Source: Spirochaetaceae bacterium (GTDB lineage Bacteria; Spirochaetota; Spirochaetia; Treponematales; Breznakiellaceae). From it: a DNA stretch of 32,022 bases. Shown here piece after piece: positions 1 to 29,746 of the stretch (position 1 is the first letter of the stretch; every line of letters starts with the position of its first letter). The notes below the pieces were generated by a model, which searched no databases, was not told the origin of the DNA, and saw only the letters and a program-made list of their open reading frames with translations. The translations under genes were made by a program, and so were the position numbers. The DNA lies in assembly GCA_031262035.1 (NCBI GenBank), contig JAISIL010000161.1, positions 1 to 32,022 on the forward strand. Direction: 5' to 3'.

Positions 1-40
1 CGCCCCGTACACTATGCTTGAATTTTTAATTACTGGTCTT
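1..40. repeat. Outer arm of a palindromic element, cut by the window edge
   Basis: The stretch from about position 3 to 36 closely matches 23807-23840, the right end of a long palindromic element (CCCCGTAC, a variable pair, then ATGCTTGAATTTTTAATT). Only this outer arm is visible, so the rest of the copy should lie to the left of the window. It sits just downstream of the 3' end of the first gene. Confidence 0.6.
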
Positions 41-58
41 GCTTTCCTTCAATTTTCA

Positions 59-847
59 TTATCTCATTAATTCCATTAATTCTTTGCCTCTTTTTACAGC
101 TTCTGCTAAATAACCTTCAGCCGTATATTTTTTTGACACATCAATATATTGTGAATCTATCTCAAATGCGAGTGATCCCCCATATCCTGTCTGAAGTATT
201 TGCTTCATTATTCTTTCCCAATTTATATTTCCTTCAAATGGCAATAAATGTTCATCTTTTATCCCATTATTGTCATGTAAATGCATCGCCCCTAATTTAT
301 CACCGTATTTTTCAAGATACTTTATTCCTTTCGTAAAACAATTTTCATGTCCGCTGTCATAACAAAACTTTAATTTGTCAGATTGTATATTTTCAAACAC
401 ATAATCAAGATATTCCGGATGGCGCACATTTTCAATGGCAATATTTACATTGTTTTTTTCCGCTCTTTCTATAAGCCGCTTAATTCGATTTAAACCAGTT
501 TGATTATAAGATGGCGGATTTTCTCCGCTTGTTAAATGCATTACTGCCGCAGGTATTTCATATTTTTTGCAATCATCTATATATGAAACATATTTGTCAA
601 ATATTTCCGTTCCGTTTATTGAATCTTCCCAGATATAATTTATTCCAGTAAAGGATAAATGAATGTTTTCAAGTTTTAATCCTGCTTTTCGCACTATATC
701 CGGTTGGGCTTCTTTTGGTCCATTTGATTCAATAAATTCGTCTCCCCACCATGTCATAACTGCCTGAAAACCAGCGTCTTTTATTAGTTTAATTATATCT
801 TCAAATGGATACCTATAACCAAACCATGTATACACACATAAATCCAT
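59..847 (-). CDS. Sugar phosphate isomerase/epimerase-like TIM-barrel protein
   Basis: 262 aa, full length for the xylose isomerase-like / AP endonuclease 2 superfamily. It opens with MDLCVYTWFGYRYPFEDIIK, the usual first strand and helix, and carries the spaced acidic and histidine metal ligands expected of the family: AIENVR, CYDSGHE, HLHDNNG and AFEID. Such proteins isomerise or epimerise sugars or related polyols in the cytoplasm using a divalent metal; the substrate cannot be read from sequence. The ATG at 847 is preceded by GGGGA on the minus strand. It is transcribed alone, away from the restriction-like operon. An endonuclease IV role is less likely because the typical EndoIV motifs are not evident. 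Confidence 0.8.
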   Translation of the reverse strand: MDLCVYTWFGYRYPFEDIIKLIKDAGFQAVMTWWGDEFIESNGPKEAQPDIVRKAGLKLENIHLSFTGINYIWEDSINGTEIFDKYVSYIDDCKKYEIPAAVMHLTSGENPPSYNQTGLNRIKRLIERAEKNNVNIAIENVRHPEYLDYVFENIQSDKLKFCYDSGHENCFTKGIKYLEKYGDKLGAMHLHDNNGIKDEHLLPFEGNINWERIMKQILQTGYGGSLAFEIDSQYIDVSKKYTAEGYLAEAVKRGKELMELMR

Positions 848-1301
848 ATATTCATTTCCCCAACATATTCAGTTTTATATTCACAATCATCTCAGGACAA
901 ATTGCACATAACTTCCCACAAGCAAAGACTTGCATGAAAATCAGGAATAGGCGCTCGGTTGTTCCTTTCACTATGGCATCCATATTTTACTATACAAAAT
1001 CCAATTTTCTCTGTCAATACATCAAGAAACTCCCCAAAAAATTGACCGCTAACCTACTTTCACAGTGTAAAGACAATGCAAGGTATGATATATCTAGTTA
1101 AACACCATGCCTGCCTAACCTGATTATATAAGTATTTTAATTTATTGATAATACTGGAAAGCCGGTGGTATTGGGTATATGCGGTTTTCGCCAAGCTAAG
1201 ATGGTTTGCCTCTTTGGCTGCTTCATTTGTATAGTGTTCTTTTGAAGAATAGTATATAGAAAAATTATGTATTATGCAAGAAGCAGGCAGATGTACACTT
1301 A
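848..1301. other. Intergenic stretch without a recognised gene
   Basis: 454 nt between the 5' end of the isomerase-like gene and the 3' end of the Vsr gene. An open frame runs through 805-1101 on the plus strand, but its product is low-complexity and unlike any family I know, so I do not call it. The promoter of the isomerase-like gene should lie here; no convincing -35/-10 pair or terminator hairpin was seen. Confidence 0.5.
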
Positions 1302-1778
1302 CTACGCCCTACTTTCCAAGATATCATAAGGCATAGTTCCATTCTTTAGTTTTGAACTTAATATATTGTTTTCTATGAGAATTTTTTTTAAGAAAGATAT
1401 CGCATTATCCACATTTTTATCTATCTGACATTCCCAAATAACAATTACCTTCCATCCAAGCTGTTCAAGCATATCAATATTCTTTTTATCCCGCTCAACA
1501 TTCCTGCCTATTTTATTCTCCCAATATTCTGAGTTGCTTTTTGGCCGCGAGGCCTCTTTACAGTTCTCATGCCTATGCCAAAAACATCCGTGAACAAAAA
1601 TAACTGTTTTATATTTTGGCATAACTATATCCGGCTTACCCGGCAACTTTTTATAATATAGCCTATAACGATATCCCATGTGCCAAAGCGCGTGCCTGAC
1701 AAGCATTTCAGGCAATGTATCTTTAGACTTTATTCGGCTCATGTTCCAGCTTCGCTGTTCTTTGGTTAGTTTGTCCAT
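1302..1778 (-). CDS. vsr: Very short patch repair (Vsr) endonuclease
   Basis: 158 aa, close to the usual Vsr length. It shows the full family pattern: EQRSWNMSRIKSKDT near the N-terminus, then MLVRHALWHMGYRYRL, LPGKPDIV with the catalytic Asp at 50, VIFVHGCFWHRHENC (His 64 and metal-binding Cys/His residues), IGRNVERDKKN and VIVIWECQI. Vsr nicks next to T:G mismatches produced when 5-methylcytosine deaminates, so it protects a genome that carries a C5 methyltransferase; one is encoded upstream in the same operon. It is the last gene, 9 nt after the DUF262 gene. Because the fold is nuclease-like, a role as a restriction nuclease in this cassette is possible but unproven. Confidence 0.93.
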   Translation of the reverse strand: MDKLTKEQRSWNMSRIKSKDTLPEMLVRHALWHMGYRYRLYYKKLPGKPDIVMPKYKTVIFVHGCFWHRHENCKEASRPKSNSEYWENKIGRNVERDKKNIDMLEQLGWKVIVIWECQIDKNVDNAISFLKKILIENNILSSKLKNGTMPYDILESRA

Positions 1779-1787
1779 TTATTTCTC

Positions 1788-2960
1788 TCAATTCTTATTC
1801 TCGATATCATCTTTATCAATATGTGTTGTAATCTCCCTTTTATACAATTCCAATAACTGTTGTAATTCTTCATCGAGTTGCTGTGAATCATTTGTACACA
1901 ACTTATATAAAACCTCAAACCGAATCATACGGTTTTTTAGCTTGTTAATACCCTCAGATGAAGCCAGCTTATATTTTTTTATATCTTCATTTAGTTTCTG
2001 AATTTCAGAGTTATCGAAAGAAATATCATACTCATTTTTAAATGCGTTATATGCCTTAATAAATAAGTTAACTCTATTTATTATCTCCTTTGTGCAATTA
2101 ATATCATTATCAATTAAGTTAAATACAAAAGAGAATAATGTAAACATCTGAGCCTTTTTTGATATAAATGATTTACTCTCTTTGTTATAGAATTTTTCAA
2201 TATATCCCATCGCCCTCTTTATTTTTGCAATCAAATTGCCATCTTCATCAAATAAATCGGAATAATCATCATAATAATGATTTATTGTTTCATCATTCGT
2301 CTGATCAAACACTCCTTCATTGGCCAATATATAGATAGAACAACAATATTCTACATCTTTCATCCTCCTAACATCATTCGGACTAAAGAGATGTACTTTA
2401 TCCCAAAAGCTTGATGATGCCAATGCCTCGGATGCCTCACCGAAACAACTGAGATTGGGTTTTCCATGCCGTTTTTCCTGTGAATTAAGATTATAATTAG
2501 TCATATTTAAACGATTGAACATCCTGATTACATCATTCCTTTTAAAGCCTGAACCTATCTCTATAATAGATAATCGATACTTCCATATCTTATCTTTATC
2601 CTCACTTGAAAAATCAGAGAAGTATTTTTCGCCGTATGCATCTCTTATTTCCTCACTTGTAAGAGATTTCTTCGACAAATTATACTTTCCTTGAATAAAA
2701 TCTACTATCGCCAAAATACGCTGCTGCCCATCAACAATATGCGTTATCATTTTACCTGTATCCGAATCAATACTCATAGGCCAAAAGAATACTTCCGGTA
2801 TGACAAAGTCTAATAATATAGTCTCAATGAGTCTAACATTATCCTGTTCAAGCCAAACATGTTTCCTCTGGTAAGATGAATCAATTACCAGTTTCCCAGT
2901 AACAAAATCATTAACAATATCACTAATTGTTTTCCTGTTAACTTCAAGTATTTTTTCCAT
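1788..2960 (-). CDS. DUF262 (ParB/GmrS-like) domain protein
   Basis: 390 aa. The N-terminal 90 residues carry the DUF262 signature: ISDIVNDFVTGKLVIDSSYQR, then KHVW, and the DGQQR motif at 77-81. DUF262 is a ParB-like fold found in GmrSD type IV restriction enzymes and other defence proteins, where DGQQR takes part in nucleotide binding or hydrolysis. The rest is helical and lysine-rich, with no DUF1524 HNH nuclease domain as in full GmrSD. The ATG at 2960 lies inside the upstream gene (17-nt overlap) and has GGAG at a good distance, implying coupled translation. The position between a nucleotidyltransferase-like protein and Vsr suggests it is an effector or sensor of the cassette; this is inference. 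Confidence 0.85.
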   Translation of the reverse strand: MEKILEVNRKTISDIVNDFVTGKLVIDSSYQRKHVWLEQDNVRLIETILLDFVIPEVFFWPMSIDSDTGKMITHIVDGQQRILAIVDFIQGKYNLSKKSLTSEEIRDAYGEKYFSDFSSEDKDKIWKYRLSIIEIGSGFKRNDVIRMFNRLNMTNYNLNSQEKRHGKPNLSCFGEASEALASSSFWDKVHLFSPNDVRRMKDVEYCCSIYILANEGVFDQTNDETINHYYDDYSDLFDEDGNLIAKIKRAMGYIEKFYNKESKSFISKKAQMFTLFSFVFNLIDNDINCTKEIINRVNLFIKAYNAFKNEYDISFDNSEIQKLNEDIKKYKLASSEGINKLKNRMIRFEVLYKLCTNDSQQLDEELQQLLELYKREITTHIDKDDIENKN

Positions 2961-3576
2961 ATTGATATAACTCCTTAATAGTATTTATTGATTGAATATT
3001 ATATTCTTCAAAATCTTCCCAACTTCTATATATTCTATATGATATATCATGCTTTAAATATAGATTTCTTCGTAATTCTTTCTTAGACTGATTTGCCTTA
3101 ATACTCCATTCTTTTCTACATTCGTTTATTCTCACTAAATCCCGTTCATTAATATAACCTCTATATATCCCTCTTGCAATATACTTGTAATGATATTCAT
3201 TTTGAATAGTGTATGAACTACGAAATAATTCCCAATAATGGTTAAACAGTCTGTTTGATACTATGGCAATATCAATATCAGAAATCTTACGTTCTTTACC
3301 ATCTGTTGAAAAGTTTTTAAGTGTTTTTCCTTTCCTTGGCGATAGACTATATCCAATCTTACTACTTCCAACTGCCATCACACTATTGAAATTTACTCCC
3401 AGAGTGCTACTTACCAAGATATTAAATTCGTCGATTATATCTCTTATATTTTTTTCCGGAATACCTAGCACATTTTCAAAATACCAGTTATCTGAGCGAA
3501 TTATATACTTTATGAATATGTCCCTTGGAGGCAAAGAGACCAAATCGTGTTTAATATCCGTAAGTGTATATTTCAT
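2944..3576 (-). CDS. Nucleotidyltransferase-fold protein
   Basis: 210 aa, family not recognised. It contains the two halves of a polymerase-beta type nucleotidyltransferase site: AVGSSKIGYSL (Gly70-Ser71) and SDIDIAIV with Asp100 and Asp102. About 29 residues separate the halves, longer than in minimal MNT proteins, which suggests an inserted loop. The C-terminal third is basic and aromatic (RRNLYLKHDISYRIYRSWEDF). Such folds can transfer nucleotides to proteins or RNA, or make signalling nucleotides. It overlaps the methyltransferase gene by 4 nt and the DUF262 gene by 17 nt, so the three are translationally coupled. A modifying partner of DUF262 is plausible; a cyclic-oligonucleotide synthase is possible but not supported by a specific motif. 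Confidence 0.7.
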   Translation of the reverse strand: MKYTLTDIKHDLVSLPPRDIFIKYIIRSDNWYFENVLGIPEKNIRDIIDEFNILVSSTLGVNFNSVMAVGSSKIGYSLSPRKGKTLKNFSTDGKERKISDIDIAIVSNRLFNHYWELFRSSYTIQNEYHYKYIARGIYRGYINERDLVRINECRKEWSIKANQSKKELRRNLYLKHDISYRIYRSWEDFEEYNIQSINTIKELYQYGKNT

Positions 3577-4715
3577 CTAATATTCTCCTGTACATAATTT
3601 TTGATAGTCTCAGCAACACCATTGGCCATCAAATAAGGCACACCGTTTCCTATTGTTTTAAACATATCAGACAAACTCATTTCAGGCGGCAATTGAAATT
3701 CTTTTGGCAAGGACTGTATCGCTAACGCCTCTGCTACGGATAGTCGTCTTTCTTTGTATGGATGTAAATGAACTTCGTTGTTTCCATACGCTGCTGTTGG
3801 TGAATACTTCCAGCGGTGCAATCGTTTATAAGATTTTTTACTAACATCGCCCTCTTGTATAGATTGAAATTTTGATAAACCGCTTCTTGGTTGAAAGAAA
3901 AAATTTGCATTCGGATGATCCTCAACATCATTTTGATCAAACCAGTATTGAATTGTCAGTTTTTTATATTCATCCGGTAATGTAAACTTGGATATCTGGC
4001 CAAAGTCGTTACACTCAGGCCACTTTTGGTTTTTAACCGTATCAAGTTGAAATGAAGCATATTTATTCCATAAAAAATCAACAAGTTCATCACCACTATC
4101 ATATTTCGTGGAATTTATCTTATCCTTCAAAATTCCAAACAAGAGTATTCTATCCCGGTCTTGAGGAACCCCAAACTCAAGAGCATTTGTCAGACGTTCA
4201 GAAGTACAGTATCCGGCATTCTTCAGTTTCTGTTTTAACTCATCGAAATATTTACGGTGTTCTATTGTTTGATATAGACCTTTTACATTCTCAAAGAGAA
4301 AGAAATCAGGCTTCATGACACAAATCAAATCTACATATGAAAGAGCTAATATCCCGTTTACTCCTTCTTTCCCCAAATTTTTCCCAGCAATAGAAAAATC
4401 AGGACATGGCGGACCACCAATAAAGCCTGTAATTGCACCATCACTTAGAGCTCTTGAGAGATAATGTTCTAGATTAACCTGATACTTTGATCTTTCTAGG
4501 AAATTTTTTATATCACAAGTAAAATACCCATAGCGAGGCGCCTGTATATTCATCTTCTCACGGGCAAAGCAGTAGGCATCTTTAAAAGGCTCTGATATTT
4601 CATTCATAAAGTCTATCGTAAAACCTGTTTTTTCAAATCCAAGGTCTAGGAAACCAGCTCCTGCAAAGAAAGAGAATAATTTAATCGTTTTTTCAGTCTT
4701 CTTAACGCTCTTCAC
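3573..4715 (-). CDS. DNA (cytosine-5-)-methyltransferase
   Basis: 380 aa with the ordered C5-methyltransferase motifs: FAGAGFLDLGF (SAM binding, 17-27), GGPPCPDFS with catalytic Cys104, FENVKG (142-146), QDRDR (185-189) and a C-terminal SVAEALAIQSLP ... TIGNGVPYLMANG block. It methylates carbon 5 of a cytosine in a short target; the target region lies between motifs VIII and IX and the site cannot be read. Motif IV is PPCP where most members have PPCQ, a tolerated variant. The start is a GTG at 4715, preceded by AAGGAA and a strong promoter. First gene of a four-gene operon with a nucleotidyltransferase-like protein, DUF262 and Vsr; no standard restriction endonuclease gene is present. Confidence 0.95.
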   Translation of the reverse strand: MKSVKKTEKTIKLFSFFAGAGFLDLGFEKTGFTIDFMNEISEPFKDAYCFAREKMNIQAPRYGYFTCDIKNFLERSKYQVNLEHYLSRALSDGAITGFIGGPPCPDFSIAGKNLGKEGVNGILALSYVDLICVMKPDFFLFENVKGLYQTIEHRKYFDELKQKLKNAGYCTSERLTNALEFGVPQDRDRILLFGILKDKINSTKYDSGDELVDFLWNKYASFQLDTVKNQKWPECNDFGQISKFTLPDEYKKLTIQYWFDQNDVEDHPNANFFFQPRSGLSKFQSIQEGDVSKKSYKRLHRWKYSPTAAYGNNEVHLHPYKERRLSVAEALAIQSLPKEFQLPPEMSLSDMFKTIGNGVPYLMANGVAETIKNYVQENIR

Positions 4716-5623: not shown

Positions 5624-8600
5624 TCATCCTTCCTCCCCCTCGCTCAAACCCCCAAGCCCCATACGGTACTTTATATCGTAGTTGATAATAAAGTCCAGTT
5701 CCTCTTCGCTAAACCCGTAGTGCTTCGCCAAAACCTTGTCGATTTGGTCTATGATGGGTTTGGATTTTGCTGGGTAATATTCTTCATAATATATCTCGCC
5801 ACTAGGATATACTCTGCTTTTAATTTCTTTATTATCATTATAACTTTTCTGCAATTTACTATTTAAATCATTAAGTTCTGAAATAAATAATTTATCAAAA
5901 AAACTAATAGGAAACCGCATAATTTCTCTCACCGAAAAATCACGGCAATTACTATAATTTTTAAAGAAGAAATAAAATAGTGAACTATTAAAAATTGATG
6001 GAACAATATTGAGAAGTTTATTGTCAAATAATAATTTTTTATAATGACTAGATGCCTTCATATTCTTATCGCTATTTGGCATTTTAGACATTGCACGGAT
6101 AAAATAAGTTGGCCCATTATGATACCATGTCTCATGCTTTGATATCTTTGTAGTATATAAAGCAAGTGTATCATTATGTAATACATTCAATACACCTTTG
6201 ATTTTTAATTCTATTTCACTGCCAGATTTTGCAAACCCCATTTCATTATACATTCTTTGAGTTTTGACATATGCTAATGCTGAAAATAGAACATCTCTAT
6301 TTTCGGCATACCAATGATGGTATTTCGTTGAATAATATATTTTATCCTTATTCTTCGTCTTTTTAGCTAAATATATTACCAATCGTTGCTCTACATCTTG
6401 GAATAATTTGGCAGGTCGATTTGAATAACTTGATTGCCATGTAACCATTTCATTTTCAAATATTTCCTGCAAACTATTGAATGAATCATTAGATATACTG
6501 GAAATAGGAATAATCATACCATTTCTGGCTTTTTTATTCATAAGATACATTGCTCTCTCAATAACAAAGGCATACAAATTACCACAACTTTCTGTCTGGT
6601 AGTTTTGGATTGTGTATATGCCACGGACTTTGCTATATTCCACATACGGCGGGTTCCCGATAACCACATCAAAGCCGCCATTACCGGCAATAATCTGGTA
6701 AAACTCTGCATACCAATGAAAAGGCTGGTGGACAGCGAGCCATTTTTCATACTGAGAGTTCGCGTGGTTCGCGGTTAAACCTATTCCATATTTCAAAGCC
6801 AGCAGCCCATCAAGTTCAGACCGCAACTTTCCCAACTGCGCACGCAACTCCGCCTTTACCGTGTGTAAATCCCCGCCTGTTACCAACTGCATCTGTTTAA
6901 AATGCGTATATGTTTTTGATATACCCTTGCACTGTGTTAAAATAGCATCAAGTTTATCCTGATTAAAGGCCAAATCCCCTGCAAATGCGTTTTGTATATC
7001 ATCTTCCGTAGCAAAACCCACCAGCGTATTACCACTTCGAATATTAAAATCAATATCAGGCAATGGTTCCAGCCCCATGTTCGGCTTTTTATAATCCGCT
7101 TCAACACAAGAGACAAGTTTTAGGAACAATCGCAATTTTGCAATTTCCGTTGCCTCTTTCATTATATCTACGCCGTATAAATTATTCAGAATAATTGTTT
7201 TATAAATAAAATACTCTCGGCTGGGATGGTTGTCAATTTCCGCAAGTTCGTCTCTAAAGCGTTCTATTCTGCAAACTGCCGGATAAAATTCATTCATCCG
7301 GCGGAGGCACACATCGTAAAGCGGTTCCAGTATGTTCAGAGCGGCAAACAAAAAAGCACCGGAACCGCAGGTCGGGTCGAGGACGCTGATAAATTTAAGG
7401 CCGTAAAAATAAAACTCCAGAATAAACTTCCAGGAACCGGTTTGGTCGAGGTAATCATACACTAACTGTGTGATGTTGAGGTTGTAAGTAATCAAATCAT
7501 TTATATCATGTATCTGGCCTTTGGTTATTTTTGTGTAAACATCAAAATAACGCTGCCATCGCGCAATCGTCTCCCGCCAGATTTCAGTAGGAAGGCCAAA
7601 CTCAGACGGAGTCGCAATATTCCAGTCCTTCCGGCGTTCAAGTAAATCGGGCTGTGTAATATCTAAACCAGCTCTAATTTTATCTGGGATATTTAAATCT
7701 GTAATATCCTTTGCGCCTTTGCGCCTTTGTGTGAGATCTTCAACTCCATATTTCACTGCATCATAGATATACCGGTCTCCGCTATCCTGTAAGAACTGCC
7801 AGAAGCCGCCACCCGCATCAAACACCTCAGGCATCCGCTCCTTCACCTTATCCAGGAAAAACGGCAGTATCGTATTCTTGCCGATATAATCAGTAATATC
7901 TTCCTTTGTATAATAAGCGCCCATCGCGGCACGGTCATTGATATATTTCTCAAAAATATAACCGATAACATCAGGATTTATTTCATTTGTTTCCTGATTT
8001 GCAGTTTCACGCGTGTCAAGCGTCCAGTTATATTCATCAAAAAACTTGAAAATTTTCTCGAACGCGCTATCAGGTATATCAATATCAGTATACTTTGTTT
8101 CCAGTTCATGGGTATCAAAAAGGCCGCCGTTCAGATAAGGCACCCGGCCAAATTCTGCAATAAAATTTTTTGCATTAGGTCTATCATTCTGTGATAGGCC
8201 CAGGCCCTCACGAAAAAGACGGCGCATAAATTTCTTATAGAATGAGTAGAAATTTGCCCCCCCTCTATCCCCCCCGGTGGTGGGGAGGTTTTTTTTGTGG
8301 TCTTCCAATTTATGTCGCAGATAATCACGGTCATTGTTGATAAAATTACGCTTTTGGATAAAATAACAGAACATTAAACGGTTTAACATAAGGCTTGCAT
8401 ACCAATCGCGGTCGGCGACTTCTGCAATGCCTGTGATAAAACTTTCAAAACTATCTTGCTCTTTTTTAAAGCGTTCATAAAATTTTTTGGTGACTTTTTC
8501 ATTATTCTGATTAAACTGCCCGCCAACCAGTTCTTTTACATCAACAATAGTGATACTATCCTCATCGGCAAGACGAAACACAAAACCGGAAGCCCTGCGG

Positions 8601-8983
8601 TAAAGTTCCTCGGGGCTGCGTTTTATATTCCATTCAACTTTAGAGCGCTTCACCGGCTGCCCCAATGCGCGTGTTACCAAAAGCCATGTCGCCTGAGTTT
8701 TTTTGCTGTCAATAAAGATAATGATATGTTCACTGTAAATTTTATTCAGGCGCTTTTCAATTTCCTGCTGTGTAGAATAATTGGGAAATGTATTATCAGA
8801 ACCAACACAGACAAAAACAATAAAACCCCGCTTCTCTGCACAGGGGCTTAGTGTGTATGATATATCATCAACAGTGATAGTTTCAGGTTTAATGCTTGTA
8901 TGCTCCCAGCCCATTTCGTTAAAAAGGCCGGCAAAGTCGAAGGCTTTGATGTATGATGAAAAAGCAGATTTATTGAGCGGCAT
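5624..8983 (-). CDS. Eco57I-type adenine-specific DNA methyltransferase
   Basis: 1119 aa. SAM-binding motif I is DPTCGSGAF (about 533-541) and the catalytic motif is GNPPYVEYSK (about 773-782), the NPPY hallmark of N6-adenine methyltransferases. The first 300 residues (e.g. VTKKFYERFKKEQDSFESF) match the N-terminal region of large COG1002/Eco57I-like enzymes; the last 300 probably recognise the target. It likely methylates an adenine to mark self DNA for the helicase encoded just upstream, whose stop overlaps this ATG by 14 nt. Length is near PglX and DISARM drmMI, but their partner genes are absent. Three in-frame repeat-derived stretches occur at about residues 228-244, 417-426 and 736-742; whether the gene is still active is unknown. 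I do not see a clear PD-(D/E)XK nuclease motif. Confidence 0.88.
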   Translation of the reverse strand: MPLNKSAFSSYIKAFDFAGLFNEMGWEHTSIKPETITVDDISYTLSPCAEKRGFIVFVCVGSDNTFPNYSTQQEIEKRLNKIYSEHIIIFIDSKKTQATWLLVTRALGQPVKRSKVEWNIKRSPEELYRRASGFVFRLADEDSITIVDVKELVGGQFNQNNEKVTKKFYERFKKEQDSFESFITGIAEVADRDWYASLMLNRLMFCYFIQKRNFINNDRDYLRHKLEDHKKNLPTTGGDRGGANFYSFYKKFMRRLFREGLGLSQNDRPNAKNFIAEFGRVPYLNGGLFDTHELETKYTDIDIPDSAFEKIFKFFDEYNWTLDTRETANQETNEINPDVIGYIFEKYINDRAAMGAYYTKEDITDYIGKNTILPFFLDKVKERMPEVFDAGGGFWQFLQDSGDRYIYDAVKYGVEDLTQRRKGAKDITDLNIPDKIRAGLDITQPDLLERRKDWNIATPSEFGLPTEIWRETIARWQRYFDVYTKITKGQIHDINDLITYNLNITQLVYDYLDQTGSWKFILEFYFYGLKFISVLDPTCGSGAFLFAALNILEPLYDVCLRRMNEFYPAVCRIERFRDELAEIDNHPSREYFIYKTIILNNLYGVDIMKEATEIAKLRLFLKLVSCVEADYKKPNMGLEPLPDIDFNIRSGNTLVGFATEDDIQNAFAGDLAFNQDKLDAILTQCKGISKTYTHFKQMQLVTGGDLHTVKAELRAQLGKLRSELDGLLALKYGIGLTANHANSQYEKWLAVHQPFHWYAEFYQIIAGNGGFDVVIGNPPYVEYSKVRGIYTIQNYQTESCGNLYAFVIERAMYLMNKKARNGMIIPISSISNDSFNSLQEIFENEMVTWQSSYSNRPAKLFQDVEQRLVIYLAKKTKNKDKIYYSTKYHHWYAENRDVLFSALAYVKTQRMYNEMGFAKSGSEIELKIKGVLNVLHNDTLALYTTKISKHETWYHNGPTYFIRAMSKMPNSDKNMKASSHYKKLLFDNKLLNIVPSIFNSSLFYFFFKNYSNCRDFSVREIMRFPISFFDKLFISELNDLNSKLQKSYNDNKEIKSRVYPSGEIYYEEYYPAKSKPIIDQIDKVLAKHYGFSEEELDFIINYDIKYRMGLGGLSEGEEG
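6759..6778. repeat. Intragenic copy of the TTCGCG repeat unit
   Basis: TTCGCGTGGTTCGCGGTTAA lies inside the adenine methyltransferase gene, in frame, and encodes LTANHANS on the minus strand. The same unit occurs in intergenic repeats at 27471, 28391 and 28612. Confidence 0.8.
7709..7735. repeat. Intragenic copy of the GCGCCTTTGCG repeat unit
   Basis: A tandem of GCGCCTTT units, followed by GTGTGAG, resembles the arm of the structured repeats at 27646, 28565 and 29611. It is read in frame within the methyltransferase as LTQRRKGAKD. Confidence 0.65.
8251..8300. repeat. G/C-run insertion inside the methyltransferase gene
   Basis: A C-run, a G-run and a T-run in succession, with CCCCCC and GGTGGTGGGGAGG able to pair, interrupt the methyltransferase frame without breaking it. 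They encode a low-complexity LPTTGGDRGGAN stretch near residue 235. No second copy lies in this window, so a repeat origin is inferred from composition. Confidence 0.45.
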
Positions 8984-11900
8984 GTTTTGCCCCCATTCTT
9001 AATCCCATAGAACAAATAATTTCAGGTTCGTTATCATCGTTTTCACTGTCATCATAAATCACAAGTTTCCCTTCGTCGCGCAGGGCAATTGCCGTTTCTG
9101 CAAGTTGTGCGTCGCTGGCTTTTACTTTCAGTTCACGGTTCAGGATGTCCTTTGCCCTCTCACGCATCCGGTATTTAAAGATATCATCAATGGTTAGTTT
9201 CAGGCTGTCGGTATCAAATATAGTGCCTTTCGCTTCTTCGTAATAACGCTCAAGCCTTGAATACACCTGATACTTTATGCCTGTTCTTTTGCCAAGCGTT
9301 CCGCTTAAGTTTTTGCTGTCTGCAATGATATTTTCAACTGCCTTCCTGACAAGTGTATGATGCGTCTCGTGTCGCTCAACAGACGGTTCGTTTGGTTCAC
9401 AGGCAGCAGTTTTCAAAATGAGCGCCTGAGATTGAGTGACAATATTGCCATCTAAATCAAGTTGTGTTAGCATATCAGTATCATCTTTGGTGTGTGCATA
9501 TACAATTACACCTTCATTACTGTTCGCGTGGTTCGCGTGGTTAGCGGTTAATTCTCTCGTAGTATACACATTATTTGGCAAGTCTCGTATAATGCGTTCC
9601 AGGCGCGGGTTTTTATCAATTGCGTTTTTCCAGATTTGATACGCTTCGGAAGCAAGGTCAACATCACTGTCTCCTTCGTCCTCGTCCATTATGCCGGATT
9701 TTTCATTATATAAATCGGCAAGATTCACGGGGTCGCCGTCAAAAAAGGTTTCATCACTTCCTACAACCTGCGCATTTTCCTTGATACGCCTTGTCAACCG
9801 TCCACGCAGATTGATGATGTTTTCAAGCCCGTCCTCCGGCAAGAATGAATAACAAATAATTTCAGGCGATTCCTGCCCGATGCGGTCGACACGGCCTGCC
9901 CGCTGTATCAGGCGGATAATAGCCCAGGGCAAATCGTAGTTTATAACGATATGGCAGTCTTGCAAATTCTGCCCTTCAGAAAGCACATCAGTAGAAATAA
10001 GCACACGGATTTTATGTATTTTAGCTTTATCTGCTGATTCTGCAATTGCCTCTTTATTTGATACTGGGCTAAAACACCATGCTTTTAGTGTCGGGTTTTC
10101 ATCACTGCCCGAAACTTCTTCAATATCCTGAACATTTCGTTTTTTCAATTCGTCATAAATGTAGTGAGCAGTATCAGAAAATTGTGTGAACACCAAAACT
10201 TTTTCATCTTTGTGCTTCTGCAATAAATCGGCAAGAGCATTTAACTGCCGGTCATCATCACCGTTCCAGTCATTACCCAATGTAAGAACTTCCTGCAACA
10301 TTGCACTATCTTTCTTGAGCGTCTTTAATAATTCATCACTAAAATATTCAGAACGCACCCAATCAAACCGTTTATGAAACGAATCAGAATCATATAATGA
10401 ATAAATTTTTTCAGCAGACAAATCAAATTGTTCGCGTGGTTGGCGTGGTTCGCGGATAATTTCTTCTATATCCTCATCTTCAAGATATTCATCAAGGTTA
10501 ATCGCATTGTTTTTCCCTATTGGCAGGGGCAAGCCATTTTCAAGAGCATATATAAAAACCTGATTACGCAAAATATGCCGCTTAATCGACAGCAAAAATG
10601 AATAGCCCGAACTTTCAAGCCGCTTAAAAAGATTGGTTCTGCAAAAACCGATAAGGCGGTTTCCAGCCCGGCTCATGTTTTTGAATACCGTTGTTTCTTC
10701 GTCGGTAATATTTGTCGGCCTCTTATCTTCCGGCAATAAATAGTTCTGCAATCCATAACGAGGTAAAGAAAGACTGCCTATTTTTTCTACTACTGGTGAT
10801 GAATACAACTTAGCATAAATATCAGTCTGGTCAAATGGGTCAAATTTATACTCCACCTTTTTGGCAAGTCTTGTGGGGAAATATGATTTTGTGCCGTCTC
10901 TAAACAAAAGATACTTTCTGCCGCTTTCAGCATCATCTTTTGCATAGTTTGCCTTGATAAAACTTCGTGTGCGGCGCACCATAAAAAGCCGCATCAGTTC
11001 TTGCCAGTCTTCCGGCCAATTGCTTTTTTCAAATGCTCGTATACCATGTATGTTTGTATCAGGATGAGTTGCTGCAAAATGGGCAACACCATTGCTGCTA
11101 TTACCTGCAAGCGCTTTTATATAACACTCCGGGCTTATTCCCAAATCGGTATCATCATTTATAAATAAACGCAACTGGCTTGATAAATCCACATAACTTT
11201 TATTGTAGGGCGTTGCTGTCAGTAACACTACCTTGCTTTCATTATCACTGATATATTTATGTATAGCAATCCAATGCACACCTTCACTGTTACGCAAGTT
11301 TTGGCTTTCATCAATTATCACCAGTTTATAGCGTATTGTATTTGAAAGTTCCTTCTGTACCATACTGACAGGCATTACTTTTGCATGCAAGCGATATCGG
11401 TCAACATAACCCTGCCACATCTTCACGAGGTTCACAGGCGATATAATCAAAATGCTCCAGCCGTAATCTTCATCAAATATTTTTGCAAGGGCTGTTGCAG
11501 TGATGGTTTTCCCCAGGCCGACAACATCTCCAATCACAACGCCGCCTCGCCTGTTCAAATGCCCTGCGGCAATCTGCACGGCCTTCTCCTGGAAATCAAG
11601 CAGTTCCTTGTGAAATTCAGATGATACATGAAACTCATTCATGCCGCTCCGTGCTTCCCTTGACAAATGATAAGCCATTTTAAGATAAGCATAATAGGGC
11701 AGCAGCGTTTCTTCCCGCGCCCAGGAATTTTCGATTATGGCAATTAACTCTTTTGTTATGTCAAGGCAGTAGCGGTCATTCCATCTTTCATCAAACCACA
11801 AGGCCAATTTTTCTGCGGCGTCCTGTTCCAGCACATCGACATTCAACTCGCCCTGTGTTTTTAGCCCTGCCAATGTCAGGTTGCTGGAACCAACATAGCC

Positions 11901-12386
11901 TTCCAGTTTGAGATGCGACCTTTCATCATGATAGGCCAGATACAGTTTGGCATGCAACCGATACAGGCTCAATTTTACGCAGACAATTCCCTGCTTTAGT
12001 TGCCGGCGAAGTGTCCGTAATGTCTTTTCATCCGCATCATCAGGGCAGCCAATACCCAATTGGCTTATAAAATGAGCGAGTGCATCCTTTTTAAGCCTGT
12101 TTGCCGTAGCATTATCCAGATGAACTTCGCCGCCTATCGAATACAGTTTTCGAAGCTCATCCCCGGAGGTCTCGTTCATGCCCACAAGTAGGCGACATTT
12201 TCGCTCGACATTTTCTCCATTTTCGTCAATAATAGTTCCAGAAAGATTATCTGCCGCATCTGAAAGCGCCTTCCAACCTCTTAGATTAAAGTAACCCACA
12301 CAAAAATCCGCCCGAACGCTACCTGCAAGAGCTTCATTTAAGCCTTTGGAGAGAAATTTTGCTTTATTATCGTATATTGTGGGCAT
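8970..12386 (-). CDS. PLD-domain SNF2 family helicase (restriction-like)
   Basis: 1138 aa. The N-terminal part has a phospholipase D-type half-site, RLHAKLYLAYHDE (His145, Lys147), followed by GYVGSSNLTLAG, as in PLD nucleases. The helicase follows: Walker A GDVVGLGKT (286-294), a DESQ box (359-362), LLTATPYN, and motif VI QRAGRVDRIGQE near residue 825. It probably translocates on DNA and may cut it through the PLD domain. It is cotranscribed with the adenine methyltransferase, with which it forms a two-gene restriction-like cassette resembling the drmD-drmMI part of class 1 DISARM, but drmA, drmB and drmC are absent. Two repeat units are embedded in frame, near residues 643-652 and 945-955. 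The ATG at 12386 has AAGG about 7 nt upstream. Confidence 0.88.
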   Translation of the reverse strand: MPTIYDNKAKFLSKGLNEALAGSVRADFCVGYFNLRGWKALSDAADNLSGTIIDENGENVERKCRLLVGMNETSGDELRKLYSIGGEVHLDNATANRLKKDALAHFISQLGIGCPDDADEKTLRTLRRQLKQGIVCVKLSLYRLHAKLYLAYHDERSHLKLEGYVGSSNLTLAGLKTQGELNVDVLEQDAAEKLALWFDERWNDRYCLDITKELIAIIENSWAREETLLPYYAYLKMAYHLSREARSGMNEFHVSSEFHKELLDFQEKAVQIAAGHLNRRGGVVIGDVVGLGKTITATALAKIFDEDYGWSILIISPVNLVKMWQGYVDRYRLHAKVMPVSMVQKELSNTIRYKLVIIDESQNLRNSEGVHWIAIHKYISDNESKVVLLTATPYNKSYVDLSSQLRLFINDDTDLGISPECYIKALAGNSSNGVAHFAATHPDTNIHGIRAFEKSNWPEDWQELMRLFMVRRTRSFIKANYAKDDAESGRKYLLFRDGTKSYFPTRLAKKVEYKFDPFDQTDIYAKLYSSPVVEKIGSLSLPRYGLQNYLLPEDKRPTNITDEETTVFKNMSRAGNRLIGFCRTNLFKRLESSGYSFLLSIKRHILRNQVFIYALENGLPLPIGKNNAINLDEYLEDEDIEEIIREPRQPREQFDLSAEKIYSLYDSDSFHKRFDWVRSEYFSDELLKTLKKDSAMLQEVLTLGNDWNGDDDRQLNALADLLQKHKDEKVLVFTQFSDTAHYIYDELKKRNVQDIEEVSGSDENPTLKAWCFSPVSNKEAIAESADKAKIHKIRVLISTDVLSEGQNLQDCHIVINYDLPWAIIRLIQRAGRVDRIGQESPEIICYSFLPEDGLENIINLRGRLTRRIKENAQVVGSDETFFDGDPVNLADLYNEKSGIMDEDEGDSDVDLASEAYQIWKNAIDKNPRLERIIRDLPNNVYTTRELTANHANHANSNEGVIVYAHTKDDTDMLTQLDLDGNIVTQSQALILKTAACEPNEPSVERHETHHTLVRKAVENIIADSKNLSGTLGKRTGIKYQVYSRLERYYEEAKGTIFDTDSLKLTIDDIFKYRMRERAKDILNRELKVKASDAQLAETAIALRDEGKLVIYDDSENDDNEPEIICSMGLRMGAKHAAQ
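9524..9552. repeat. Intragenic copy of the TTCGCG repeat unit in the helicase gene
   Basis: Two GTTCGCGTG units followed by GTTAGCGGTTAA. Read on the minus strand it gives LTANHANHANS near residue 950, the same frame as the copy at 6759. Confidence 0.8.
10431..10459. repeat. Second intragenic TTCGCG repeat unit, other frame
   Basis: The same DNA repeat as at 27471 with one change near its end (CGCGGATAA for CGCGGTTAA). Here it is read in a different frame and encodes IREPRQPREQ, so the peptide differs although the DNA is nearly the same. Confidence 0.8.
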
Positions 12387-22145: not shown

Positions 22146-22167
22146 TTAAGCGCGAACTACGCGAATG

Positions 22168-22211
22168 GGTCTCGACAAGCTCAACCCCCGGTGGTCGAGC
22201 TTGTCGAGACC
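22168..22211. terminator. Inverted repeat between convergent genes, likely bidirectional terminator
   Basis: GGTCTCGACAAGCTC (22168-22182) and its exact reverse complement GAGCTTGTCGAGACC (22197-22211) flank 14 nt. It lies between the stops of the GltD-like and DUF342 genes. No long T-run follows, so it may instead be a dispersed palindromic repeat at a convergent junction. Confidence 0.6.
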
Positions 22212-22224
22212 ACCTAGTTAAATA

Positions 22225-27423: not shown

Positions 27424-27449
27424 TGCAATAGGTAATGACAAGAAAGCCA

Positions 27450-27713
27450 CGCCAACCGCACGAACACCCCGTTCGCGTGGTTGGCGTGGTTCGCGGTTAA
27501 TCCCCTGCTTTTCGTAGTTAGAAACAATCTAAGAAGCTCACGCAAAGACGCGGAGGACGCGGAGTGGTTGTAACCGGTTTTATCGTATTCTTTCTGGCAA
27601 GGATAGTCAAGAAAGAATATTGATATGATAGCTAACAACAACTTTGCGTCCTCCGCGCCTTTGCGTGAGGTTTATTGAATGGATAGAACAAGTTCGTGTG
27701 TGTTGGGGAGGTT
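27450..27713. repeat. Structured repeat, copy A
   Basis: It begins with TTCGCG units (27471-27500) and carries an inverted pair of 24-nt arms, 27537-27560 and 27646-27669, 85 nt apart and differing at one pairing position. An inner pair, TATTCTTTC and GAAAGAATA, forms a second hairpin. It ends with a shorter TTCGTG motif. Located between the lipoprotein and the DUF2442 gene. Confidence 0.85.
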
Positions 27714-27750
27714 CGTGGTTTTGCAACCGCAAAGATAACAAAGGAAGCTT

Positions 27751-28005
27751 CTAACGGGTGAGAGGTATACTGTCATACCACAGATCTTCACAGTCAAGGT
27801 CTATATCATCATTCCAGGCAATACCATAGCCGCCGCAGTCTACTTGCACCTGTTCGAACAGACCATTGACATAGATTAAAGTTTTGAAAGCATCAAATTT
27901 TTCCAGAAGTGGCCGGACATCATACTGTCTTTCTTCACCAGTGGTAAATATAACATCCAACATCATATTTCCCATCGGCTTGACATCTTTTATTTTATGC
28001 ATCAT
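27751..28005 (-). CDS. DUF2442 protein
   Basis: 84 aa from the ATG at 28005. DUF2442 features: KIKDVKPMGNMMLDVIFTTGE, then QYDVRPLLEKF and VDCGGYGIAWNDDIDLDCEDLWYDS. The family is usually encoded next to DUF4160 and such pairs are taken as candidate toxin-antitoxin modules; the activity is not known. I prefer the ATG at 28005 because GAGG lies just upstream. It is second of two genes, 7 nt after the DUF4160 stop. Confidence 0.85.
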   Translation of the reverse strand: MMHKIKDVKPMGNMMLDVIFTTGEERQYDVRPLLEKFDAFKTLIYVNGLFEQVQVDCGGYGIAWNDDIDLDCEDLWYDSIPLTR

Positions 28006-28012
28006 AGATACC

Positions 28013-28267
28013 TCAATCCAATGGCGGTATTTTAATAAATTTTTGAGTGTTCCAGATTTCAAGCAATTCTGCCTGATGTAATTGCATCCACTTTTTTACC
28101 AGTCGTAGACCATCAGGAGGCAGATCACCTTCAATCATCTCAAAGGTCTGTATATCCATTAATCCAATCTTATCATTGTAAATAACATGGATATGAGGCG
28201 GATTGTGCTCCTTGTCTCTGTAAAACATTTTGAGCACCATTCCATAAAATCTGCTTAATTCAGGCAT
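28013..28267 (-). CDS. DUF4160 protein
   Basis: 84 aa, full length. It contains the family core: MPELSRFYGMVLKMFYRD, the HNPPHIHVIYND motif, MDIQTFEMIEGDLPP and a C-terminal helix (KKWMQLHQAELLEIW). DUF4160 genes commonly precede DUF2442 genes, as here. GGAG lies 8 nt before the ATG, and the promoter is clear. The likely role is as one half of a small toxin-antitoxin-like module. Confidence 0.88.
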   Translation of the reverse strand: MPELSRFYGMVLKMFYRDKEHNPPHIHVIYNDKIGLMDIQTFEMIEGDLPPDGLRLVKKWMQLHQAELLEIWNTQKFIKIPPLD

Positions 28268-28286
28268 TCTTTATCTCCATAGTCTA

Positions 28287-28315
28287 ACAATACAGTATCC
28301 CACCAAAAAAGTCAA
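28287..28315 (-). promoter_or_regulatory. Promoter of the DUF4160/DUF2442 pair
   Basis: TTGACT (28310-28315), a 17-nt spacer and TATTGT (28287-28292) on the minus strand, followed by a leader of about 20 nt with GGAG. Confidence 0.6.
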
Positions 28316-28340
28316 GTGTTCGACCTGCCTCCTAAAAAGA

Positions 28341-28640
28341 GTGCCTGGCACCAATTACCAATTAAGCCCCAAGCGCCACCCACACCCCCGTTCGCGTGGT
28401 TGGCGTGGTTCGCGGTTAATCCCCTGCTTTTCGTAGTTAGAAATAATTTAAGAAGCTCACGCAAAGGCGCGAAGGGCGCGGAGTGGTTGTAACCGGCTTT
28501 ATCGTATTCTTTCTAGTAGCGATAGTCGAGAAGGAATATTGATATGATAGCTAACAACAACTTTGCGTCCTTGGCGCCTTTGCGTGAGGTTTATCGGGTG
28601 GATACAACAAGTTCGCGTGGTTAGCGTGGTTCGCGGTTAA
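28341..28640. repeat. Structured repeat, copy B
   Basis: Starts with GTGCCTGGCACC and a C-rich stretch, then TTCGCG units at 28391, arms at 28456-28479 and 28565-28588 (85 nt apart), and a second TTCGCG block at 28612-28640. The arm sequence differs from copy A at positions that mostly keep pairing (see findings). Confidence 0.85.
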
Positions 28641-28663
28641 TTTTTAGGGAAAGGTGCCTGGCA

Positions 28664-28858
28664 TTACATTTGCGTAGAGCTCACACGGGGGCGCTGAGGG
28701 GGATAATTATCCACCCCTACCACGGGTTGGAATTGGCCATTAAAATAAGTAAGCAATTCTTTTGAACTCATCCCGGAGGTTTTAGCCAAAATCTGCTTTT
28801 GAATAGCTCTTTTCATTGCGATACAATCAAACTGTTTCTTCGGTTTCCTCTTGGTCAT
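28664..28858 (-). CDS. Antitoxin partner of the PIN toxin, with a repeat-derived tail
   Basis: 64 aa from the ATG at 28858, which lies 32 nt inside the end of the PIN gene. Residues 1-41 (KPKKQFDCIAMKRAIQKQIL ... MSSKELLTYFNG) resemble small antitoxins that follow PIN genes. The last 23 residues (QPVVGVDNYPPQRPRVSSTQ) do not, and their DNA is G+C-rich and repeat-like (GAGCTCACACGGGGGCGC), so the original C-terminus seems to have been replaced. Whether it still neutralises the toxin is unknown. Confidence 0.6.
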   Translation of the reverse strand: MTKRKPKKQFDCIAMKRAIQKQILAKTSGMSSKELLTYFNGQFQPVVGVDNYPPQRPRVSSTQM

Positions 28859-29309
28859 AATGCAATAACTCCTTTGGATTTCTGATTTCCAATGGCGTGT
28901 AACCATTTTTCAAATTCACACCATTATATCCTCGAATTCTTTCTAGATTTACAATATGTTTAAAGTTCCATGAAGCCAGCACATCTGCCTTATAAATTGT
29001 CGCAATAGCAATATGACGGCAATCATCAAGGCTAGTTTTACCTATAACCTTTTCTGCGATATATTCATTCGCTAAATCAATTGCTTCCTGGGTTAATTCA
29101 ACATACTCAAAGCAATCGTCACTATATTTGCCAAGAAGTTCACGAACCTGCTGTGGCGCTAATGTTAACTCCTGTTTTAATACACTTGAAATTACAAACA
29201 AAACTTCTTTCCTCTCAAGCCTCTGAAAGAGGGCCTGGGTTTCATCTGCAAATTCATCATCAAAATAACCGCCCACGATGGAAGTATCAATATATATCCT
29301 CTTAACCAT
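28827..29309 (-). CDS. PIN-domain toxin
   Basis: 160 aa. PIN pattern: RIYIDTSIVGGYFDDEF (first Asp at 8), a central acidic residue in KQELTLA, TSLDDCRHIAIATIYKADVLASWNFKHIVN with the remaining acidic positions, then a variable tail that overlaps the antitoxin. The gene order is toxin first, antitoxin second. PIN toxins are metal-dependent ribonucleases. The start is the ATG at 29309, supported by a promoter ending 6 nt before it; no ribosome-binding site is seen, consistent with a leaderless mRNA. Confidence 0.85.
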   Translation of the reverse strand: MVKRIYIDTSIVGGYFDDEFADETQALFQRLERKEVLFVISSVLKQELTLAPQQVRELLGKYSDDCFEYVELTQEAIDLANEYIAEKVIGKTSLDDCRHIAIATIYKADVLASWNFKHIVNLERIRGYNGVNLKNGYTPLEIRNPKELLHYDQEETEETV

Positions 29310-29315
29310 ATCTCA

Positions 29316-29344
29316 AGTATACCACATCCGAACGAAAAGGTCAA
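29316..29344 (-). promoter_or_regulatory. Promoter predicting a leaderless mRNA for the PIN toxin gene
   Basis: TTGACC (29339-29344), a 17-nt spacer and TATACT (29316-29321) on the minus strand. The ATG at 29309 follows after 6 nt. Confidence 0.7.
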
Positions 29345-29383
29345 TGGGTCGAAAGCCAGAGCAAAATCATTTAAAACAAAAAA

Positions 29384-29690
29384 GTGCCTGGCACCAATTA
29401 GCCCAAGAGCCACCCACACCACCGTTCGTGGTTAACGCATACATGCGTCAGTGGTTCGCGGTTAATCCCCTGCTTTTCGCACTTAGAAATTATCTAAGAA
29501 GCTCACGCGGGGGCGCGGAGGACGCGGAGTGGTTGTAACCGGCTTTATCATATTCTTTCCAGTAACGATAATTAAGAAGGAATATTGATATGATAGCTAA
29601 CAACAACTTTGCGTTCTTGGCGCCTTTGCGTGAGGTTTATTGAATGGACACAACAAGTTCGTGTGTGTTCGGGTGGTTCGTGGCGATACA
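29384..29690. repeat. Structured repeat, copy C
   Basis: Starts with GTGCCTGGCACC and C-rich sequence, then a variant TTCG block split by an insert (CGCATACATGCG, itself palindromic), arms at 29502-29525 and 29611-29634 (85 nt apart) and a closing TTCGTG block. The centre is nearly the same as in copies A and B. Confidence 0.85.
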
Positions 29691-29746
29691 GGCGGCTTAG
29701 CTTCTGTGGTTGTTTTTGCGTGAATTGCACGCTCCATGCATCGTAC

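Follow-up and report, generated by a model that had tools for sequence, protein, structure and literature searches.

In-frame repeat units in a restriction-like gene pair of a Spirochaetaceae bacterium: copies of a dispersed, probably mobile repeat family

Did the short repeats that lie in frame inside both genes of a restriction-like pair grow within the coding DNA, or did they arrive there ready-made? The window (the whole stretch of 32,022 nucleotides that we analyzed) is contig C144 of a 3.07-Mb draft genome of 215 contigs that is 99% complete; its closest named relative found is a Treponema sp. MAG. The initial annotation had noted three TTCGCG-type units (hereafter A units) and one CTTTGCGC-type unit (B unit) in frame in the two genes, with long frames remaining open through them, and both statements are confirmed: the methyltransferase (1119 aa) and helicase (1138 aa) ORFs are intact and conserved (Table 1).

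Table 1. Genes, repeat units, and composite repeats in the window
Feature	Position	Strand	Details
Type IIG restriction enzyme-methyltransferase	5624..8983	-	PF07669, PADLOC PDLC03628; carries two units
HKD/PLD + SNF2 helicase	8970..12386	-	PF00271, PF00176, PF13091; PADLOC C3a139 HKD+Snf2; carries two units
A unit, 21 bp, GTTCGCGTGGTTCGCGGTTAA	6758..6778	+	Antisense to methyltransferase gene; encodes LTANHAN
B unit, 27 bp, (CTTTGCGC)2CTTTGTGTGAG	7709..7735	+	Plus-strand letters CTTTGCGCCTTTGCGCCTTTGTGTGAG; encodes LTQRRKGAKD in methyltransferase
A unit, 30 bp, GTTCGCGTGGTTCGCGTGGTTAGCGGTTAA	9522..9551	+	Encodes LTANHANHAN in helicase
A unit, 30 bp, GTTCGCGTGGTTGGCGTGGTTCGCGGATAA	10430..10459	+	Encodes IIREPRQPREQ in helicase
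A unit, 30 bp	27471..27500	+	In composite repeat, outside gene pair
A unit, 30 bp	28390..28419	+	Intergenic, in composite repeat
A unit, 30 bp	28611..28640	+	Intergenic, in composite repeat
Head-to-head B-unit pair around spacer	27537..27669	.	
Head-to-head B-unit pair around spacer	28456..28588	.	
Composite of A units and B pairs, about 290 bp, three copies	27435-27730, 28355-28650, 29395-29695 (span 27435..29695)	.	DNA alignment

The four units of the gene pair

Methyltransferase homologues adjoin the helicase in many loci, and the genome contigs searched contain 80 loci homologous to the helicase. The window proteins were aligned with homologues drawn from many phyla, 84 for the helicase and up to 60 for the methyltransferase. 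In the helicase, the linker at 9522 has 16 residues against a homologue median of 12, and 78 of the 84 homologues are shorter there. The linker at 10430, whose unit ends in GGATAA instead of GGTTAA at its 3' end, has 20 residues and homologues have 20-41, none of the 84 being shorter; since removal of the unit would leave this linker shorter than in any homologue, the site points to replacement rather than net insertion. In the methyltransferase, the linker at 6758 has 21 residues against a median of 18 and is shorter than in the two closest homologues, and the linker at 7709 has 20 residues against a median of 15. The comparison with homologues that the initial annotation had proposed therefore bears out insertion in part: measured against the median homologue, only at 9522, 6758, and 7709 does the protein appear to have gained length on balance. 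The peptides LTANHAN, LTANHANHAN, IIREPRQPREQ, and LTQRRKGAKD occur in none of the homologues displayed at those sites, so the result that the annotation had named as refuting, the same peptides in repeat-free homologues, was not obtained.

Conservation at these sites is low for windows of the same size (percentiles of 3.0 at 10430, 0.1 at 9522, 1.9 at 6758, and 0.5 at 7709). AlphaFold2 models, a check that the initial annotation had proposed, place all four sites in coil or low-confidence linkers, and with a mean pLDDT of 75.4 and 73.5 in the two models the loop geometry is unreliable in detail. In the methyltransferase model, the 6758 unit overlaps coil 732-738 between helices and the 7709 B unit lies at coil 419-426; in the helicase model, the 9522 unit occupies a loop modeled with low confidence between strands 940-946 and 959-965, and the 10430 unit lies where a low-pLDDT region (626-645) gives way to the next block. 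We saw no sign that the units regulate or benefit the window gene pair.

Anatomy, flanks, and pairing of the repeat family

The A module has the form GTTCGCG(TGGTTNGCG)nGTTAA with n = 1, 2, or 3, which gives the 21, 30, or 39 bp of every copy in the 262 kb surveyed, so that an in-frame stop is its sole hazard to a reading frame. A units are a genome-wide dispersed family of about 130 copies: the 21-bp 3' module has 130 matches in the genome and 0 in the reversed control, and GTTCGCGTGGTTNGCG with up to 2 mismatches has 265 and 7, respectively. Within the window, TTCGCGTGGTT (up to 1 mismatch) occurs 14 times and TTTGCGCCTTTG 5 times, against 0.35 and 0.33 expected from shuffles. A detailed survey of 66 stretches taken around matches (262 kb) yielded 97 A units, of which 25 measure 21 bp, 70 measure 30 bp, and 2 measure 39 bp; the reversed control yielded 0. 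The search pattern fixes both module ends, and the sharpness of the ends was therefore checked separately.

G occupies the position directly 5' of GTTCGCG in 3% of copies. In the six bases after GTTAA, G makes up 0-4% per position against a background of 24%, and it returns to about 20% at +8; on the 3' side, the G-free flank has a very sharp profile. Positions +1 to +6 lack G in 94% of A copies and in 23% of random sites, and the six bases on both sides lack it in 63% of copies against 6% at random; the flank is alike whether or not a copy lies in an ORF. Direct repeats (3-9 bp) are not in excess across the A inserts, which in this respect differ from DNA transposons and MITEs with their target-site duplications.

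A units less than 150 bp apart form head-to-head pairs in 14 of 14 cases in the 262 kb, with spacers of 22-72 bp that mostly differ. Three of these pairs nevertheless have one 24-bp spacer in common (75-92% identity, in both orientations) despite unrelated outer flanks, and the whole composite thus appears to have been copied. The three composites of the window have 88% mean column identity in a DNA alignment. A pair in the mfd gene, the one tested, forms an almost unbroken stem (105 nt, -27.3 kcal/mol, z -6.6), whereas a single 30-mer is barely more stable than its shuffles (z -0.95) and a 21-mer modestly so (z -3.6); judged by this pair, strong palindromic folding is limited to the head-to-head arrangement.

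It had further been suggested that the locus might reveal repeats expanding inside coding DNA, and here the copies tell against the idea. The 21-, 30-, and 39-bp classes stand at 9:29:1 in ORFs and 16:41:1 outside them, and the five middle-unit subfamilies of the 30-bp form (GTTGGCGTG in 24 copies, GTTCGCGTG in 16, GTTTGCGTG in 8, GTTCGCGTC in 6, and GTCTGCGTG in 4) are all present both inside and outside ORFs. Because coding and noncoding copies have their lengths and diagnostic middle units in common, the modules arrive preformed. In the B family, the unit is 8 bp and 27 bp is the first in-frame size; copies of 27 bp account for 6 of 6 in ORFs and 0 of 9 outside, which argues that the reading frame filters the survivors.

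Copies inside genes

By our ORF criteria, 39 of the 97 A units lie in ORFs (at least 150 aa), against 77% of random positions; genes are thus avoided, though not spared. Among 30 host proteins scanned, 29 match Pfam, including DnaE, PheS, ArgS, MurC, CarB, PyrF, a TsaB/TsaD-like protein, Dus, aconitase, and an SMC/RecF/RecN-domain protein. Mfd holds three A units, two of them as a pair, RecG holds a pair with a 60-bp spacer, and in a Wadjet-like system both the JetD-like protein and its SbcC/AAA-type neighbor carry units.

Homologue alignments were made at about a dozen of the 39 sites; PheS and RdgB, where the element was outside the coverage or blurred, are left out of the length comparison. 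DnaE has 15 residues between anchors where 28 of 28 measured homologues have 2-3, with the same gap in a PDB alignment, and an RlmI-like methyltransferase has exactly 10 residues more than its best PDB match. As judged from these alignments, the two proteins carry clean insertions. MurC (30 residues against a median of 22, +8) and PyrF (gaps of 9 and 3 residues, about +12) also gain length, whereas ArgS (14 residues against a median of 14) and a P-type ATPase (a 1-residue difference) have no net gain, which indicates that insertion and replacement both occur.

Each strand of the A unit reads as two open frames. In ORFs, 34 copies are antisense and 5 sense (p = 2e-6), a bias that holds at p = 0.0008 once the higher frequency of C-free than of G-free tracts on coding strands is allowed for. 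The LTANHAN-type frame is used 21 times, the INREPRE-type 13 times, the SRGSRL-type 3 times, the stop-containing frame twice (both sense copies, with the TAA altered), and the FAWFAVN frame 0 times. The peptide is therefore under selection, contrary to the view of the initial annotation that selection does not act on it; this does not imply that the peptide is useful.

Origin of the units and related systems

We consider the units to be copies of a small non-autonomous mobile repeat, similar to REPINs or to the palindromic elements of Rickettsia (RPEs), that would arrive ready-made and persist where tolerated, and we give this reading a probability of roughly 0.6. It is favored because of the exact ends, the module lengths, the flank composition, and the composite copied whole; the absence of net gain at helicase 10430, ArgS, and the P-type ATPase is not what plain insertion predicts. 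Mobility here is deduced from the copies of one genome. Modules exist (i) singly, as half-elements, or (ii) in head-to-head palindromic pairs that enclose 22-72 bp of other DNA. A trans-acting activity may copy or capture a preformed module and insert it where the DNA is free of G, at times at the expense of target sequence. Many coding insertions would stay readable, their lengths being divisible by three and each strand having two open frames out of three, and selection would mainly keep those in linkers that tolerate them and in the orientation whose peptides are hydrophilic (LTANHAN, INREPRE). The four units of the window would then be surviving insertions in linkers of the restriction-like gene pair.

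Several other origins were weighed against this one. Filler or capture during double-strand-break repair, in which templated or reverse-copied repeat fragments are joined into trimmed ends and partly replace native sequence with no dedicated element involved, agrees with the mostly different pair spacers, the missing target-site duplication, and the three sites that show no length gain; replacement at some sites together with the lack of a duplication leads us to keep repair-coupled capture as a candidate, albeit an unlikely one, since random repair should leave ragged ends, whereas both module ends are fixed to the base, the 3' G-free flank is sharp, and the RlmI-like protein has gained its 10 residues exactly. 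Movement of REP/REPIN elements by a RAYT-type Y1 transposase is very unlikely. These elements do resemble the A units in being 20-40 bp long, in occurring as singlets and mainly head-to-head hairpin dimers, and in having occasional intragenic copies (PMC3116915, PMC3733652). However, A units end in GTTCGCG and GGTTAA with no GTAG/CGTC tag, fold weakly as single units, and have an internal 9-bp tandem repeat and module lengths of 21/30/39, and PF01797 has 0 matches in this 99% complete genome but is found in 5 of 14 controls. Two reverse transcriptase genes were rejected as mobilizers: an RVT_1 gene on contig C119 lies beside variable-protein-like phage genes (DGR-like), a second on contig C51 is in two overlapping frames, and neither locus has a link to the units.

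The remaining alternatives dispense with movement. Tandem units in varying number (n = 1-3) are what slippage would produce from a short motif already present in the genes, but the module and its diagnostic middle units recur at scores of unrelated sites, the outer ends are constant, the length mix is equal inside and outside ORFs, and homologues lack any seed; we give expansion in place next to no weight. A DNA-level motif for uptake or binding, evolved in place by point mutation, is highly improbable. DNA uptake sequences likewise have a fixed sequence, inverted pairs, and both coding and intergenic copies, but point mutation does not account for the residues gained at the DnaE, RlmI-like, and MurC sites or for a composite copied to three places. 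That the repeats are there to supply useful linkers is scarcely credible: it would suit the strong orientation bias and the linker placement, yet two unrelated peptides are used and most copies lie outside genes.

If the mobile-repeat reading is right, this genome would offer a clean natural experiment in which short mobile DNA lengthens essential proteins and leaves them unbroken, with the three-base module rule, the bias in orientation, and the preference for loops as quantifiable filters. Intragenic, frame-neutral multicopy repeats are in themselves already known, namely RPEs, intragenic REPs (PMC3733652), and the repeats of Geobacter (PMC2700814, PMC2996986). In Rickettsia, RPEs and the intragenic CGTC REPs of R. 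conorii sit in frame inside genes (PMC3733652), and A units resemble them in being dispersed and in frame in genes that likely work, including DNA repair genes, with some copies paired. The RPE comparison drawn in the initial annotation holds insofar as a dispersed family enters genes without shifting the frame, at variable loops; it fails in that the in-gene copies of the window are single half-units and not palindromes. Unlike RPEs, a single A unit is a tandem 9-mer with no stable hairpin in its 30-bp form, and host, sequence, and ends differ as well, the comparison being one of described features.

The multicopy sequences of Geobacter metallireducens and G. bemidjiensis, as far as excerpts of their accounts describe them, are short tandem families in and between genes, sometimes more than one per gene, with tandem sites paired across the two strands at varying distances (PMC2700814, PMC2996986). 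By that description, A and B units have the same features: many tandem copies, in and between genes, on both strands, with no frameshift. The Geobacter units are other heptamers and octamers, presented in the same excerpts as putative regulatory RNA or binding sites, and a G-free flank, a module-length rule, or a host-gene insertion test was not found there (PMC2700814, PMC2996986). The TAACTGA repeats of Beggiatoaceae are also a short tandem motif in many copies, for which past mobility has been considered; they are nearly all intergenic, upstream of starts, and their in-ORF copies lie mostly at protein ends (PMC4679880). Our literature search returned no relevant paper on the exact unit sequence, and in the papers examined we found no description, for repeats of this kind, of a module rule based on 9 bp, of a target signature devoid of G, or of essential genes invaded to this extent without a RAYT. 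The sharp G-free flank, the lack of target duplication, and the lack of a RAYT would together point to a mobilization route that we did not find described for such repeats in the literature examined.

None of 249 relatives has a copy number near that of this genome, and among 393 genomes of the phylum the generic three-unit form is present only here and in one other. In 1.04 Mb of helicase-homologue loci and a few relatives, no A copies were found beyond the window's own and those of one relative (G082). The exact 30-mer has no match in IMG/VR; generic relatives of the form TTAACC[AG]CGAA(nnAC[AG]CGAA)n are present there, about 66 of their 67 places being in IMG/VR contigs and one in the other genome of the phylum. 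It is conceivable, as a tentative extension, that a class of mini-elements of related architecture, with head-to-head pairs and few C in the upstream flank, is spread over contigs of many environments and multiplies in bursts within single lineages, inserting ready-made, frame-neutral modules into G-free stretches by a non-RAYT mechanism, perhaps ssDNA- or RNA-templated, that reaches the interiors of essential genes. Close pairs of the generic relatives are head-to-head in 3 of 3 cases, and the last 6 upstream bases lack C in 48% of their copies against 17% at random; this C-poor upstream flank is the A signature on the opposite strand, in weaker form.

Several units within one protein

Two proteins of the same draft genome carry several units each. 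In the DUF5107/TPR protein, the A unit (one to three 9-bp repeats between fixed ends, GTTCGCG and GTTAA) and the B units (the second repeat family) are all in frame, and two of the three B units form a head-to-head pair. Two of the three A units in the Mfd-like protein are likewise head-to-head, across a 45-bp spacer, and this pair yields an in-frame stretch of 35 residues.

Units in and around defence genes

On contig C198 (L171), two neighbouring genes, SbcC/AAA-type and JetD-like (Wadjet), each contain an A unit; this is a second defence-type gene pair with units in both genes. The type IIG methyltransferase-helicase pair itself adjoins genes for Vsr, a GmrSD_N-type protein, and a C5 cytosine methyltransferase, which makes this stretch of the window rich in defence genes. 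At the linker that carries the B unit in the window methyltransferase, an Ignavibacteriaceae homologue (L059) has HTERSRSMNEETKTD, which we take to resemble another, putative repeat-derived peptide.

Composite and inverted repeats

The composite repeat occurs in three copies in the window. What separates them is a gene of the DUF2442 family together with an ORF of 160 aa that has no Pfam match and, judged by eye, may be PIN-like. A third repeat, the inverted GGTCTCGACAAGCTC...GAGCTTGTCGAGACC, often lies beside A units or between them. Elsewhere in the genome, a reverse transcriptase gene adjoins variable-protein-like phage genes, an arrangement that resembles a diversity-generating retroelement.

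Locations of repeats and genes (C, contigs of the draft genome; L, extracted stretches)
Feature	Location	Size	Units
Composite repeat	window 27435-27730	~290 bp	A units, head-to-head B pair
Composite repeat	window 28355-28650	~290 bp	A units, head-to-head B pair
Composite repeat	window 29395-29695	~290 bp	A units, head-to-head B pair
Third repeat	window 22155-22215; L010; L026		
Vsr, GmrSD_N-type and C5 methyltransferase genes	window 1302-4715		
DUF5107/TPR protein	C45 (L020), ORF 512-2281	590 aa	one 39-bp A, three 27-bp B
Mfd-like protein	C122 (L154), ORF 1-3465, minus		three A
Reverse transcriptase	C119:4917-5519 (L130)
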